NCBI GenBank assembly: GCA_945902745.1
Contig: CAMDNE010000014.1
Location: forward strand, 1 to 64,000
Direction of reading: 5' to 3'
DNA: 64,000 bases
DNA from: Chitinophaga pinensis
GTDB taxonomy: Bacteria; Bacteroidota; Bacteroidia; Flavobacteriales_D; Crocinitomicaceae
Each line of letters opens with the position of its first letter. The stretch's first letter is position 1. Shown in pieces: positions 21,366 through 26,037 of this stretch. The notes below the pieces were generated by a model, which did no database searches, had not been told where the DNA came from, and saw only the letters and a program-made list of their open reading frames with translations. A program made the translations under genes and the position numbers.

Positions 21366-22352
21366 GTGAAAATTCTTGTCGTTCGGTTTAGTTCTATTGG
21401 TGACGTTGTATTAACAACTCCAGTCGTGCGTTGCTTAAAGCAACAAATTCCAAACTGTGAGATTCATTTCATCACCAAAAAAGCATTCAAAGGAATTTTA
21501 GAACATAATTCCAATATTTCTAAGATTTTCACGATTGACTCGTCCATTTCTGAAGTTATTCCCGCTTTAAAAGAAGAAAAATACGATTATGTAATTGATT
21601 TGCATAAAAATTTACGCACGTTTCAACTCAAAAATAAATTGGGTCGTCCATCCTACTCTTTTCCTAAACTCAATTTTGAAAAATGGATATTGGTGAATTT
21701 GAAACGAAATAACATGCCGAAAGTTCATGTTGTTGACCGTTATTTTAAAGCCGTAGAAAAATTAGGTGTCAAAAATGACAATAAACCCTGTGATTTCTTT
21801 ATTCAGCTTTCAGACGAAATCCAAATTAAAGATCATTTCAACCTAACTTCAGAGAAATATATTACCATCGCAATCGGTGCTCAATTTGCAACGAAACGCA
21901 TGCCTTTCGAAAAATTAAAGGAAATCATCGAGCAACTGAATCAATCAATCATTTTAATTGGTGGTGAAACAGATAAAACGTTGGCAGATGAAATTTTGGC
22001 CGCATTTCCAAATAAAACTATTTTCTCTGCTTGCGGAATTTTCTCTTTGGCGCAATCAGCAAGCATTGTGAAACAATCACGTGTTTTACTGACAAATGAT
22101 ACTGGAATGATGCACATTGCTTCATGCTTTCAAATTCCAACAATCAGTGTTTGGGGAAATACCGTTCCAGAATTAGGCATGTATCCGTATTTTCCTGAAA
22201 ATCCTGAAATCTTCTCAATTCACGAAGTAAAAGGATTGAATTGCAGACCTTGTTCAAAAATTGGTTTTCAAAAATGTCCAAAAGGTCACTTTAACTGCAT
22301 GAATTTGCAGGATTCAAAAGTGATTGGGGCAGATATATTGGGGAAAATTTAA
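21366..22352 (+). CDS. Glycosyltransferase family 9 (heptosyltransferase)
   Basis: A 328-residue cytoplasmic GT-B protein. It has the typical start MKILVVRFSSIGDVVLTTPV, a nucleotide-sugar region with LTNDTGMMHIAS, and VWGNTVPE, all hallmarks of the WaaC/WaaF/RfaF family that builds the LPS core. The start codon is GTG at 21366; no nearby ATG would keep the conserved N-terminus. The C-terminal part has several cysteines (NCRPCSKIGFQKCPKGHFNC), a common feature of Bacteroidota members. Third gene of the envelope operon, 24 nt after the GT-C gene. Confidence 0.93.
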   Translation: MKILVVRFSSIGDVVLTTPVVRCLKQQIPNCEIHFITKKAFKGILEHNSNISKIFTIDSSISEVIPALKEEKYDYVIDLHKNLRTFQLKNKLGRPSYSFPKLNFEKWILVNLKRNNMPKVHVVDRYFKAVEKLGVKNDNKPCDFFIQLSDEIQIKDHFNLTSEKYITIAIGAQFATKRMPFEKLKEIIEQLNQSIILIGGETDKTLADEILAAFPNKTIFSACGIFSLAQSASIVKQSRVLLTNDTGMMHIASCFQIPTISVWGNTVPELGMYPYFPENPEIFSIHEVKGLNCRPCSKIGFQKCPKGHFNCMNLQDSKVIGADILGKI

Positions 22353-22472
22353 AAAGTTAACGATGTTATCCAATTATTAGCATCTTGAAAACAATGTTAA
22401 TAAGTAATAAAAAGCCTTCAAAAAGCACAAACCATATTTATTACTTTTAACTGTTAATTCAAGACAGCTAAA

Positions 22473-23210
22473 ATGAACTATGATACTATGACAATTGAAT
22501 TTGAGCCTCTAGTAGAAGATCCCATTCCAGATCCTCGCATTAAAAAAGCCGAATTATTATCAGATCCTGAATCACGTTTAGATTCTCAAATCATGAAATA
22601 CACTCCAATGAGTGATTCAAGTATTGCGTTTAGAGACATGACAAATCTTGCTTCAAAAAAGGAAAGTATCACAAAGCTGATTGAAAAGTTGAATGTTGAA
22701 GGGAATTTAAGATACAAAAGAACCATTGAAGATACATATTGCAATGTTTACAGTTTTGACTATTGTTATTTTTCGAGAGTCTATTTACCAACTGTTTGGT
22801 GGACAGATGAAGCACTTGAAAGAGTATTAAATGGTGAAGAAGTGGAAGCTATTTTTGGCGAAACAGTAGATCATATTTATTCAAGCGCTATTCACGATTG
22901 GTTTTTGAAATGGGGAGCAAGTTTCGGTTGGAAAAGAGTTTTTACCGTTGAAGAGATTCAAAACCAAGTCAACAAAAATGGTGGTATTGGAATTATTTGT
23001 GCCAAACGAAAAGAAAAAGGATTGTCAGGTCATATTGTTCCAGTTATTCCTGAATGCGATAAAAACAAAGCCCACAGAATAAATGGTGAGACCCTTTACC
23101 CTTTGCAATCTCAAGCGGGTAAGTTAAATCATAACTACTTTTCAGAAATCAAAAAAGATTGGTGGAATGATGAGTTGTATTCTTCGTATGTTCTTTATTA
23201 TCATGATTAA
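22473..23210 (+). CDS. Putative papain/CHAP-like amidase
   Basis: A 245-residue protein without a signal peptide. TYCNVYSFD (residues 88-96) has the T-x-C-N-x-[YF] pattern around the catalytic Cys of several CHAP/NlpC-like amidases, giving C90. GHIVPVIPE gives H187 as the probable catalytic His. LQSQAG (211-216) and the Trp-rich stretches PTVWWTD and DWFLKWG are also typical of a family of uncharacterised proteins, some of which are seen as cell-wall-degrading effectors (from memory). Whether it cleaves peptidoglycan, and how it would leave the cell, is unknown; no secretion or immunity partner is evident. A good terminator follows. Confidence 0.6.
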   Translation: MNYDTMTIEFEPLVEDPIPDPRIKKAELLSDPESRLDSQIMKYTPMSDSSIAFRDMTNLASKKESITKLIEKLNVEGNLRYKRTIEDTYCNVYSFDYCYFSRVYLPTVWWTDEALERVLNGEEVEAIFGETVDHIYSSAIHDWFLKWGASFGWKRVFTVEEIQNQVNKNGGIGIICAKRKEKGLSGHIVPVIPECDKNKAHRINGETLYPLQSQAGKLNHNYFSEIKKDWWNDELYSSYVLYYHD

Positions 23211-23255
23211 CTAGTGTCTTTTTTAATCTTCGATTTCAGCGTTGTTCTTGTTTTA

Positions 23256-23293
23256 AAAAATCAGTCATTTACAACTGTAAACGCCTGATTTTT
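23256..23293 (+). terminator. Terminator of the amidase-like gene
   Basis: AAAAATCAG (23256-23264) pairs with CTGATTTTT (23285-23293). The loop itself contains an inner TTTAC/GTAAA stem. It ends in a T run, 46 nt past the stop codon. Confidence 0.75.
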
Positions 23294-23562
23294 AAAACTG
23301 CAAACGCCTCGAATTCAAACATTAAAATACAGACACTATGTTTTTAGGATAAAACCGCTGCGTTGCAGTTTTACTGCTGCGCCACATTATCAATTCTATT
23401 TTTTTTCAGAAATCTTAATTAATTCAATCACTTTTACACACGAAAGTTGAATTGTGCCAAAAATTTGCAGCAGCATTACACCACGCAATAGCACCGAAGG
23501 TAAATACAGCGGAGTATTGCCAGAACATTTTAATTTGTCATTAAAATTCCAAACCAAAACAC

Positions 23563-23594
23563 CTTGTAAATATTATAAAAACTACGTACTTTTG
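23563..23594 (+). promoter_or_regulatory. Probable promoter of the amidoligase-like gene
   Basis: CTTG (23563-23566), a 20-nt spacer and TACTTTTG (23587-23594). The -7 box is a perfect match and the -33 box has one mismatch. It would give a leader of roughly 170 nt before the ATG at 23771, which is long for this genome. Confidence 0.45.
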
Positions 23595-23770
23595 TGGCTT
23601 AGAAAAAACAATCTAAAGTTTGTAATTCCTTATAAATTCTATTTATTGTCTTCTTTCTGTTTTACAGGTTAGAAATTTCTGAAACAAAACTAAAATTCCT
23701 ATATATCAACGTATTAAACCCCAAATTTTTGGACCTTACCTACGTATAACTTTAATAAGAAGAAGAATAA

Positions 23771-25276
23771 ATGAAAGAAAACCAGACAAACAACTATTAT
23801 TGGGGAATTGGGTTAGAAAATGAAACCTACCTGCAATTCGAGGAATCCTTGATAGTTACTGGTGCATTTATACATGAAAAAATTGGTTGTGATCGATACA
23901 GTATCGATTATCGTAAGTGCTATAAAACAGGAAGCCTTGCTCCTATTCTGAATTCAGCTTTCGAAAAGAATGAAAATTATAAAGTGAGCCGAATGATCAA
24001 TAGTCATTCACTTGATAAATTGGACATAGAGTACAATCATAGAACGTTACCAGCTTTAGAAACTACTGATGAAACTGGAGCGAACGCAATGCCACTTGAG
24101 AATCCTGAATTTCTAGGAGAATCAATTTTAGAACTTTTTCTGAAAGATCAACCTTACAATATTCGAAGCATATTAACACGAAAGAATAACCCGATGGGTT
24201 CTGTCAATTTTGATGGTGATTCTATTGAGTTTGTTACCATGTATTTTCAAAACAGAACGATCAAAGAATCGTGTGATGAACTAAAAACGACCAAAAAATT
24301 ATTTCTCGATAAATTAAATGAATCAGCTGTTTTTACTGAAAAACTGAAATTTCCAGATTACAATATTGGTATCAACAAATTCATGTCCAACCAGGAAAAT
24401 CTTGTTTTGTTTAACAACGGAACCTACCATTTTCACATCACCTTACCTACCTTAACAGAAAATAGCAGAATTGTAGATTACACACAATTCGATGCAACCC
24501 ATTCCAACGCCATTTATTTATTACAATGGTTTGAACCGTTTTTCATTGCAACGCTAGGAAATCCAGATATTATGGGTATTATAAGTTCAAAATGCAACTT
24601 GGACAAAAATTTCACATTAGGATCCATGCGCAGTGCGATGTCGCGATACATTGGAGTTGGAACTTACAACAAATCAATGCCAAATGGTAAAATTCTTACT
24701 TATAAAGTGGAGGATTTTAGAAAATTGCTCAAGTTTGAAAAAGAAGAAAACATTTGGTGGCGTGATCAGATTAAAAAAGAAACTGAATATGAATTTCTCT
24801 CAGATCTTGGACTTGATTTTAATCAAGAAAAAATGTACCAAAGTGGATTTGAAATTAGAAGCTTTGATGAATTTCCAGCAGATTATTTAAATGATGTTCT
24901 AGTTGCGATTCTTCTGATTTGCGAACATTCTTTGAACCTGCCAAATGTTACTTGGGGACATGACAGCATTGTTTGGAATAATTTGGTTTATAAAACCTTA
25001 AAATACGGCTATTTAACTGAAATAAATGAAGTTGAAAAGAAAGAAGTGTTAGAGCTGTTACAGTTAGAAGATTCAAGTAAAGAATTTGAAAACTGTGTAT
25101 TATTGGATGAGTTTTTCTTTAAAATTCTAGCAGTATTAACCGACAAGTACAAAGAAAACAATGTTTGTTTGGATTTAATGATTGGGCACAAATTAACTTC
25201 CGCTCCAAAATGGGAGAACTTTAATAAATTCCAGACCGAGCAGCATTTAAAACAAATCGTTCCTGTTAATTTGTAA
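23771..25276 (+). CDS. Putative amidoligase, glutamate-cysteine-ligase-like fold
   Basis: A 501-residue cytoplasmic protein. Several short patterns resemble carboxylate-amine ligases of the glutamate-cysteine ligase/glutamine synthetase fold: an early Gly-Glu strand GIGLENETYL (12-21); an internal SIEFVT strand; GTYHFHITLP (about 216-225), where metal-binding His/Glu strands occur; NAIYLLQWFEPFF (about 245-257); and SGFEIRSFDEFP (about 357-368), which matches the E-x-R-x-x-D motif of YbdK-type ligases. Overall similarity to known ligases is low, so this is a fold-level guess. It lies alone, 560 bp after the amidase-like gene. The substrate is unknown. Confidence 0.5.
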   Translation: MKENQTNNYYWGIGLENETYLQFEESLIVTGAFIHEKIGCDRYSIDYRKCYKTGSLAPILNSAFEKNENYKVSRMINSHSLDKLDIEYNHRTLPALETTDETGANAMPLENPEFLGESILELFLKDQPYNIRSILTRKNNPMGSVNFDGDSIEFVTMYFQNRTIKESCDELKTTKKLFLDKLNESAVFTEKLKFPDYNIGINKFMSNQENLVLFNNGTYHFHITLPTLTENSRIVDYTQFDATHSNAIYLLQWFEPFFIATLGNPDIMGIISSKCNLDKNFTLGSMRSAMSRYIGVGTYNKSMPNGKILTYKVEDFRKLLKFEKEENIWWRDQIKKETEYEFLSDLGLDFNQEKMYQSGFEIRSFDEFPADYLNDVLVAILLICEHSLNLPNVTWGHDSIVWNNLVYKTLKYGYLTEINEVEKKEVLELLQLEDSSKEFENCVLLDEFFFKILAVLTDKYKENNVCLDLMIGHKLTSAPKWENFNKFQTEQHLKQIVPVNL

Positions 25277-25314
25277 GAGAAAAATTTAAATTTCCTGACA
25301 TATAAGGAAGAAGG

Positions 25315-25356
25315 AAAAAGTAATTTGGTTCTTGGGAATCACACTTTTTACTTTTT
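25315..25356. terminator. Bidirectional terminator within a dispersed repeat
   Basis: AAAAAGTAA (25315-25323) pairs with TTACTTTTT (25348-25356). It sits between convergent genes. The segment 25304-25340 shares words with 17470-17505, and the right arm is a short tandem of ACTTTTT units. Confidence 0.55.
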
Positions 25357-25370
25357 ACTTTTTTAAAAGA

Positions 25371-25886
25371 TTACTCCTCCAAAAACAATTTTCTCAATTC
25401 AGTAGCATCACTAGGTTTCATTTTTCCTGCAAGGATCAAACTCAATTGTTTTCTTCTCAATGCGCCTTCATAACGGTCCTTTTCTTCCTCAGTTTCCGGA
25501 GTTAATTCTGGAACTTGAATTGGTCCACCATTTTGATCAACAGCCACAAACGTGTAGATTGCTTCGTTGCATTTTTCACGTTTACCCGTAACATGGTCTT
25601 CAACGAAAACATCAACAAACACCTCCATTGATGACACAAAAGCTCTAGAAACCTTTGCTTCTAAGGTAACGATGGACGCATGGTTAATCGGTTTTTGAAA
25701 AGATACATTGTTGACTGAAGCAGTAACAACAACTCTTTTACAATGTCTATGAGCAGACACACTAGCAATTACATCCATCCATGCCAACAATTGTCCTCCG
25801 AATAGATTTCCAAGTGTATTCGTATCATTTGGCAATACAACTTTTGTAGATATAGATAAGGTTTGCGATGCTTTTCCTGCTTTCAT
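25371..25886 (-). CDS. Acyl-CoA thioesterase, hotdog fold (YciA/BFIT type)
   Basis: A 171-residue hotdog-fold enzyme that hydrolyses acyl-CoA to free acid and CoA. The conserved start, NTLGNLFGGQLLAWMDVIAS (residues about 23-42), contains the active-site Asn and Asp of the YciA/acyl-CoA thioesterase family. It is followed by the central strand VSFQKPINHASIVTLEAKV and the CNEAIYTFVAVD strand. The C-terminal 50 residues are charged helices. It is cytoplasmic, and the ATG at 25886 fits the family length. It stands alone between convergent and divergent neighbours. Confidence 0.92.
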   Translation of the reverse strand: MKAGKASQTLSISTKVVLPNDTNTLGNLFGGQLLAWMDVIASVSAHRHCKRVVVTASVNNVSFQKPINHASIVTLEAKVSRAFVSSMEVFVDVFVEDHVTGKREKCNEAIYTFVAVDQNGGPIQVPELTPETEEEKDRYEGALRRKQLSLILAGKMKPSDATELRKLFLEE

Positions 25887-26037
25887 TAGATTTTTTTTCC
25901 AAAATTACAATTAAAGAAAACAATTACGCCAAACTAAATTCGTTATTTACAAAAAAACAAAAACTTGACTTTAAAAGTTTAAAAAACTTGAATTTAATAG
26001 GCTATTGACTATATTTACAACCGATTTGAAGAGTACT

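Follow-up and report, generated by a model that had tools for sequence, protein, structure and literature searches.

Which substrate do a ligase and a peptidase share when their genes stand side by side and neither protein falls into a named family? This question is raised by two genes on contig CAMDNE010000014.1 (assembly GCA_945902745.1), whose first 64,000 nucleotides, read on the forward strand, make up the window analysed here. The genes encode a predicted Tae1-like peptidase and, downstream of it, a predicted carboxylate-amine ligase. They are conserved as neighbours, and we tentatively suggest that both enzymes act on the murein stem peptide.

22473 to 23210, + strand: papain-fold (NlpC/P60-type) cysteine peptidase, Tae1-like, predicted; 245 amino acids; model with a mean predicted local distance difference test (pLDDT) score of 85.9.
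23771 to 25276, + strand: carboxylate-amine ligase (amidoligase), predicted glutamine synthetase/glutamate-cysteine ligase (GS/GCS) fold; open reading frame (ORF) of 501 amino acids with an ATG start.

The original prediction, made from the sequence alone, had proposed an amidoligase that matches no nameable family, and the database searches agree with this. The ligase gave zero Pfam rows at E<=1, and so no profile match to PF04107 (YbdK/GCS2), PF12224 (Amidoligase_2) or PF04262 (GshA); it was unmatched in NCBIfam and PADLOC, and its PHROG search returned one row with E 0.19. A profile search of the PDB sequences was empty for the ligase and for its partner. We judged the phmmer rows of the ligase (best E 0.04, 4q6m) to be chance matches. 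The window's own genome (3.46 Mb) contains a single ligase copy and no match to PF04107, PF12224 or PF04262. None of 99 genomes in the phylum draw had the GshA family (PF04262), which was detected in the control Bacteroides ihuae.

The fold gave a clearer answer. The AlphaFold2 model of the ligase, built with 29 family members, has a mean pLDDT of 79.8 and a predicted TM-score (pTM) of 0.85, with residues 96-111 and 293-304 below pLDDT 50. Foldseek against the PDB ranked YbdK best (E 1.9e-5 and 7.1e-5) and its Salmonella counterpart next (2.1e-4), with plant glutamate-cysteine ligase (GCL) and many glutamine synthetases after these rows. In VIA-align, the model aligned with 1tt4 at Z 17.1 (root-mean-square deviation (rmsd) 3.9, 288 residues aligned) and with 1r8g at Z 16.8 (rmsd 3.8, 289 aligned), then with bifunctional glutathione synthetase (Z 16.0), plant GCL (13.0), Dop/PafA (11.9-12.6) and E. 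coli GshA (11.8). Z was at least 8 in 198 of 335 chains, and the top rows (1tt4, 1r8g, 3ln7 and 2gwc) are of GCS type. The fold and class are very probably those of a GS/GCS carboxylate-amine ligase, and the comparison with YbdK and GshA upholds the fold first proposed and not an unrelated one.

Four motifs had been singled out earlier, and all are present: GIGLENE (residues 12-18), GTYHFHITLP (217-226), NAIYLLQWFEP (246-256) and FEIRSFDEFP (360-369). The residues within and around them that are most telling are as follows, each conserved in 29/29 aligned members.

23816 to 23824, + strand: E16-N-E18, the E-x-E motif; beside E27/E29 of GshA (GLERET) and E17/E19 of YbdK (GIELEM).
24227 to 24229, + strand: E153 (SIEFVT); beside LLEFIT (GshA) and MLELAT (YbdK).
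24428 to 24430, + strand: H220 (GTYHFHITLP); beside SGVHYNFSLP (GshA) and FGQHVHVG (YbdK).
24644 to 24646, + strand: R292 (SRYIGVGTY), candidate arginine for substrate or phosphate, a putative role.
24851 to 24859, + strand: E361-I-R363 (FEIRSFDEFP); beside IEVRSLDINP (GshA) and VEVRVMDTP (YbdK).

The alignment holds the window protein and 28 others that are 34-79% identical to it, and the pairing of motifs with E. coli GshA and YbdK was made by eye. We take the key motif residues to bind metal and substrate in GCS, the E-x-E presumably being the metal-binding part. All 16 columns that we checked, including G14, E16, E18, E153, H220, R292, E361, R363, D366, W402 and N403, are invariant, and the motifs are thus not chance. 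An ordered pattern (E-x-E, E, H, E-x-R; without R292) was written from the ligase, GshA and YbdK, so that matches to those three are not independent. In its strict form it occurs in 29/29 members, in 0/358 background neighbour proteins of at least 300 amino acids and in 0/20000 shuffles; among proteins of the phylum it was found in 0/25 GCS2, 0/8 Amidoligase_2 and 0/4 weak-PF04107 proteins. A looser form matches 6/25 GCS2, 0/8 Amidoligase_2 and 2/4 weak-PF04107 proteins, 0/358 background proteins and 87/20000 shuffles.

By predicted fold and motifs, the ligase thus has a class, and it lies outside the Pfam families GCS2, Amidoligase_2 and GshA. It shares with YbdK/GCS2 (PF04107; 1r8g, 1tt4) the GS fold, at Z about 17 over 288-289 residues, and the order E-x-E, E, H, E-x-R. 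However, identity is 10-15%, there is no Pfam match and no significant profile comparison, the window ligase is 129 residues longer than E. coli YbdK, and it is tied to a peptidase gene. GshA (PF04262; 1v4g) comes nearest in the wording of the motifs (GLERET/SGVHYNFSLP/IEVRSLDINP versus GLENET/GTYHFHITLP/FEIRSFDEFP) and aligns at Z 11.8, but has no sequence-level match with the ligase.

The gene that precedes the ligase had been described as amidase-like. It is likewise unnamed: its best Pfam row is Bul1_C with E 0.12, below the cut-off, and PHROG, NCBIfam and PADLOC were empty. The window partner has no Pfam peptidase profile above the cut-off and no row at E<=1 for PF10030 (Tae1, DUF2272). 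That the Tae1 family corresponds to DUF2272 is taken from passages of PMC10318531. The partner copy at locus L070 matched Peptidase_C39_2 with E 0.0032, below the cut-off.

Structure again was more informative. Foldseek placed Tse1/Tae1 best (E 0.013-0.016, probability 0.97), with no row under 0.001. In VIA-align eleven Tae1/Tse1 entries lead with Z 9.6-10.7 (4eq8: Z 10.7, rmsd 2.7, 130 residues aligned, 18% identity), followed by the endolysins Ly7917 (7.4) and LysIME-EF1 (6.7), Tae3 (6.1) and CHAP domains (5.7). Weaker rows are the dipeptidyl-peptidase VI (DPP VI)-like 3pvq (Z 5.6), glutathionylspermidine (Gsp) amidase (4.9) and trypanothione synthetase (4.5). The model predicts a papain-like fold with a cysteine at the start of a helix and a histidine in a strand, as follows.

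22740 to 22742, + strand: Cys90 (DTYCNVY), presumed nucleophile, at a helix start in the model; invariant in 33/33.
23031 to 23033, + strand: His187 (SGHI), presumed base, in a strand in the model; invariant in 33/33.

The partner alignment comprises 33 of the 57 listed representatives. In the available passages of PMC9270033, the catalytic dyad of Tae1 is given as Cys30/His91. The partner is like Tae1/Tse1, a murein amidase effector of the type VI secretion system (T6SS; 4eq8, 4fgi), in its fold and its Cys/His pair. It is unlike Tae1/Tse1 in its low identity and its greater length (245 amino acids), in carrying an SH3b domain in one clade, and in having a ligase, in place of a Tai1-like binder, as its counterpart, with the T6SS marker mostly absent.

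The company kept by the partner domain points to the cell wall. In a distant clade of the pair (three genomes, see below) the partner carries SH3b (PF08239, E 1.2e-8, above the cut-off, in L111), and the partner ORFs of all three genomes start with near-identical sequence. At L127 a partner-type domain is fused behind a GH19 endolysin (PF00182, E 1e-8, above the cut-off; endolysin PHROG, E 1.8e-77; SH3_3 just below the cut-off), at L129 it stands behind SH3b, and at L128 and in Azospirillum it follows a longer unnamed N-terminal region. In appearance, this is a domain of wall hydrolases, which in the lineages studied here has a ligase as its neighbour. The window partner itself had no match among phage records, one relative in viral contigs and two on plasmids.

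The viral relative, L118:2916-3761, is an SH3b + Tae1-like protein on an uncultured tailed-phage contig, encoded between a VapE-like gene (with a methylase recognised by eye) and a terminase; the contig also has portal and prohead-protease genes. This protein has two weak phage matches at 26% identity and, judged from its sequence and setting, is a probable endolysin of an unnamed type. The plasmid relatives are L170:5140-6732 (Azospirillum plasmid) and L171:5668-6591 (Hymenobacter plasmid), both Tae1-like domain proteins annotated as hypothetical.

Across genomes, the two genes remain neighbours although what lies around them varies. A partner relative is present in 102/105 loci, and the pair is adjacent in 109/112 loci, 106 on the same strand with the partner upstream and 3, of the distant clade, convergent; L082-L105 largely repeat the genomes of L002-L081, so neither the 105 nor the 112 loci are independent genomes. 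In the three loci lacking adjacency (L045, L103 and L105) the ligase match starts at locus base 247, 3 and 3, at the contig start. When neighbours were counted in 80 flanked loci (ORFs of at least 90 amino acids, with many loci cut by contig ends), the ligase cluster occurred in 80, the partner in 78 and the next commonest neighbour in 19. All 8 ligase carriers of the phylum draws (395 genomes, own genome included) have the partner with E below 1e-110, and in another three genomes a distant partner domain was detected (E 2.7e-50 to 1.1e-55) but no ligase; the two phylum draws are taken as the same 395 genomes on account of shared handles. The expectation that the pair would be conserved has thus held, and strict adjacency, joint inheritance and patchy spread, the traits of an effector-immunity pair that we looked at, were all found. 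We are confident that the two genes form a functional pair.

The ligase gene is patchily distributed. It was detected in 23/200 genomes of the window's family, in 8/395 of the phylum draw and, by profile, in 5/395 of the class draw, with the own genome in each count. A scan of one genome per species reached close relatives only: the best 80 of 102 confirmed ligase relatives are 68-94% identical, and their record titles are mostly Flavobacterium, Fluviicola, Crocinitomicaceae and Flavobacteriales. Three genomes (G537, G340 and G266) have a distant version with about 32-37% identity, and their genus (g30) is Flavobacterium if genome G522 is locus L030, as their matching coordinates suggest. In three distant-clade genomes (L178-L180) the convergent pair lies beside look-alikes of thrC, thrB and thrA, recognised by eye, a fixed position in contrast to the scattered main clade. 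No ligase match was found in 50,697 phage records, 72,556 plasmid records or the viral contigs.

In a quick maximum-likelihood tree, supported by the Shimodaira-Hasegawa-like approximate likelihood ratio test (SH-aLRT) only, the window lineage (L001-L007) and the Fluviicola copy L009 fall together with 22 copies from Flavobacterium (SH-aLRT 99) and away from the remaining 12 copies of the window's family and from two short-gap Flavobacterium copies (L061 and L080). Two long rows, L081 and L006, are of unsure place. The family labels, assigned from record titles and by matching contig coordinates to genomes, need 4 changes on the tree, at least 2 of them forced by well-supported branches. As the window copy groups with Flavobacterium copies, the pair seems to move between families.

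Two public organism labels look wrong: L051 (CP034120, titled Glaciecola amylolytica) and L075 (Chitinophaga pinensis) have coordinates that match G096, of the window's family, and G143, of the window's genus, respectively. The ligase gene may be decaying in some relatives. A ligase piece at a contig start (G028:C39:3-794) has one stop inside the match, and an open frame of 466 codons (G133:C90:5297-6688) matches the ligase in two pieces, as if shortened.

Relatives of the ligase extend beyond bacteria. The BFVD search returned two full-length structural matches, A0A3G4ZUC6 of Dasosvirus (E 2.6e-35, TMq 0.81, 31% identity) and A0A5K0U889 of Yasminevirus (E 5.3e-34, TMq 0.80, 28% identity), both viruses belonging to the Klosneuvirinae, Mimiviridae. 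Weaker rows are a choanoflagellate virus (4.8e-15), Mimivirus R704a (5.5e-9) and Cafeteria roenbergensis virus (3.6e-5); rows labelled phage amidoligase have E 0.066 or more. The ligase model is nearer to the two top viral proteins than to any solved structure found. Neither of these two carries a functional assignment, and the viral contig collection yielded no relative. DNA patterns aimed at giant-virus relatives gave 0 matches in viral contigs, so the link to giant viruses is the BFVD match alone.

What, then, would the pair act on? GCS-type ligases form gamma-glutamyl amides, and the bond that we take Tae1 to cut is gamma-D-Glu-mDAP (mDAP, meso-diaminopimelate), so both enzymes would plausibly meet on the murein stem peptide. 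The SH3b, GH19-endolysin and phage contexts, together with the fold of the partner, likewise suggest this peptide as the thing cut. The common target would be its gamma-glutamyl-type region (D-Glu/meso-DAP). The peptidase would cut the stem peptide, either inside the cell or after release, because no signal peptide was seen by eye (no predictor was run; the same holds for the ligase). The ligase, presumably cytosolic because it needs ATP, would form an amide on a carboxylate of the stem peptide or of its precursor and would so cap or rebuild the site. Capping would keep the cell's own wall and precursors from being substrates of the peptidase.

Taken as a whole, with both enzymes acting on the gamma-glutamyl stem peptide and the ligase capping or restoring the sites of cleavage, this reading with its inferred substrate is a tentative one, somewhat short of probable. 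Murein peptide as the shared substrate is evenly balanced in our estimate, and self-protection as the purpose of capping is possible though doubtful. There are precedents for parts of it. In S. aureus, amidation of the stem peptide by MurT/GatD shields the wall against lysozyme, according to passages of PMC3267633, and B. subtilis YkfC is described in the part seen of PMC2954226 as an NlpC/P60 gamma-D-Glu-DAP endopeptidase that lacks a signal peptide and is probably cytoplasmic. The original prediction had the pair making and cutting an unknown amide or peptide tag; the make-and-cut idea is still alive, whereas the unknown tag gives way to murein peptide, a better guess from the partner's fold and fusions.

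Several points weigh against the murein proposal. The modelled link to Tae1 comes from VIA-align, the best Foldseek row being only E 0.013, and the bond ascribed to Tae1 is our assumption. The available passages of PMC9270033 leave that bond unstated. Three genomes of the phylum draw and 2 plasmids (plasmid records only; chromosomes not searched) have the partner domain but no detected ligase, so the ligase is not needed everywhere as an antidote. Ligase relatives in Mimiviridae, which are viruses of eukaryotes, fit poorly with a murein-only role, as far as structural models tell. Pairwise distances of ligase and partner correlate (r 0.84 over 84 loci, reached by 0/1000 label permutations; 0.86 over 86 loci with L110 and L111 included), but such a correlation is expected for any two linked genes. 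In the MurT/GatD precedent, lysozyme is a glycan hydrolase and amidation follows the cytoplasmic phase (passages of PMC3267633). No export route for the peptidase was found. Finally, no significant similarity emerged when the ligase was compared, profile against profile, with GCS2 (25 rows), Amidoligase_2 (8 rows), four weak-PF04107 proteins, GshA and YbdK; given the low diversity of the ligase alignment (effective number of sequences, Neff, 1.96), this is weak evidence of absence.

Among the alternatives, the best survivor has the ligase conjugating a small gamma-glutamyl metabolite and the peptidase reversing this, by analogy with glutathionylspermidine synthetase/amidase (GspSA), where a ligase likewise opposes a papain-like amidase. 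The weak alignments of the partner with Gsp amidase and trypanothione synthetase, the lack of a visible signal peptide in either protein and the presence of the ligase fold in Mimiviridae, which have no murein, would all suit it. However, Tae1 scores far higher (Z 10.7 versus 4.9 for Gsp amidase), and the contexts of the partner domain (SH3b, GH19 endolysin, phage) are of wall-hydrolase type. The GspSA ligase is moreover an ATP-grasp enzyme fused in a single chain with its amidase. We consider this explanation unlikely.

Recycling of murein peptides, in which the peptidase would act like YkfC in trimming stem peptides and the ligase would re-attach the product as Mpl re-attaches the murein tripeptide, is also rather unlikely. 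A DPP VI-like chain does appear in the structural list of the partner (3pvq, Z 5.6), but well below Tae1; no neighbour gene is found beyond 19/80 loci, which leaves no fixed recycling partner such as an epimerase-like gene, and a pair found in 23/200 family genomes is too patchy for housekeeping. The YkfC/DPP VI gamma-D-glutamyl-diamino acid endopeptidases resemble the partner in their NlpC/P60 class and SH3b domains, and members that have no signal peptide and are probably cytoplasmic exist (passages of PMC2954226).

Modification of a protein, with the ligase adding an amino acid or peptide and the peptidase removing it as in the Pup ligase/Dop system, is improbable. The fold list of the ligase includes Dop and PafA (Z 11.9-12.6), and the Mimiviridae homologues suggest a non-murein target; against this, YbdK-type chains score higher (Z about 17), no third gene of at least 90 amino acids (shorter genes were left out) widely recurs, and the partner has its wall-hydrolase context. 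Least probable is a T6SS role, with delivery of the Tae1-like enzyme into rival cells and protection of the sender by the ligase. Among solved folds, Tae1 is nearest to the partner, and the pair is patchy and seems mobile, but the Hcp-like TssD (PF17642), the single T6SS marker used and detected in 0/14 control genomes, occurs in 2/24 pair carriers versus 1/11 non-carriers and not in the window's genome, and we set this reading low.

Returning to the murein stem peptide, we can imagine a mobile two-gene module in which a GS-fold ligase, and not a binding protein, serves as antidote to a wall-cutting peptidase by rewriting the stem peptide in the cytosol, perhaps with an RNA leader by which the modified peptide is sensed, and that giant viruses use the same ligase family for their own ends; as a whole this is an unlikely scenario. 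The GS-fold ligase family and the Tae1-like peptidase, both unnamed, form a fixed and seemingly mobile pair. Such a unit, whose two enzymes have opposite chemistry and are inherited together, is a defined, testable system. To our knowledge, the GS fold is not usually linked to the cell wall. If the ligase alters the stem peptide, it would bring wall modification by this fold and a possible route of resistance against endopeptidases of rivals or phages. The ligase family shared with Mimiviridae would be open to the same assay, and even with a metabolite as substrate, two unnamed enzyme families would gain a function.

A later paper from the group of Iyer and Aravind (PMC4431377) notes that COOH-NH2 ligases had previously been seen in operons with other peptide ligases; the passages available of that paper contain nothing on links of such ligases with peptidases. 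By titles and the beginnings of abstracts, the open-licence PubMed Central (PMC) papers that our searches listed include none about this pair, and an earlier mention in the 2009 amidoligase paper is possible.

The region between the two genes contains the following features.

23252 to 23297, + strand: inverted repeat of two 22-nt arms, 86% complementary and 2 nt apart, just after the partner gene and with no T-run behind; possible terminator.
23564 to 23594, + strand: candidate Bacteroidota-type promoter of the ligase, TTG (23564) and TACTTTTG (23587-23594, TAnnTTTG), 184 bases before the ligase start.
23595 to 23770, + strand: 5' leader of the ligase gene; its Flavobacterium counterpart is about 340 nt long and conserved.

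We take TTG / TAnnTTTG to be the promoter consensus of Bacteroidota. TAnnTTTG is present in the intergenic region of 65/80 loci (76 sites versus 18.2 in mononucleotide shuffles) and within 250 bases upstream of the partner in 7/80 loci; TAYTTTTG alone occurs in the window about as often as expected by chance (24 versus 20). In most loci, the ligase is thus a candidate for having a promoter of its own. Nine of the 80 loci, including two from Flavobacterium, have a gap of 38-59 bases, and there the pair looks like one operon.

The window leader folds no better than shuffles (z -0.68), and no known RNA family of Rfam was found in window positions 22300-25900. The Flavobacterium leaders (for example L022:7646-8000; intergenic regions of L008-L076) have a mean column identity of 71%, with 31/54 rows aligned. 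Their free consensus fold gives the first hairpin only (5 pairs, energy -0.12). In three hairpins that were picked by eye from one row, which favours both measures, 89.7% of cells are paired versus 40-49% when slid, and the covariation score is 0.153 versus 0.040-0.081 when slid. Double changes number 17 cells versus 5.3 in column shuffles, yet lie inside the slid range of 8-22; pairs changed on both sides number 7, at the low end of the slid 6-16 and reached by 28/500 shuffles, with none in hairpin 2. The evidence for RNA structure is therefore mixed, and a riboswitch-like or attenuator function of the Flavobacterium leader is conceivable.

Between the two genes, the window (region 23211-23600) and L002 are about 340 bases longer than L003/L004 (560/566 versus 223/224). 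The extra bases include the inverted repeat at 23252-23297 and an 11-nt inverted repeat at 23293/23363, and the stretch is possibly a small inserted element.

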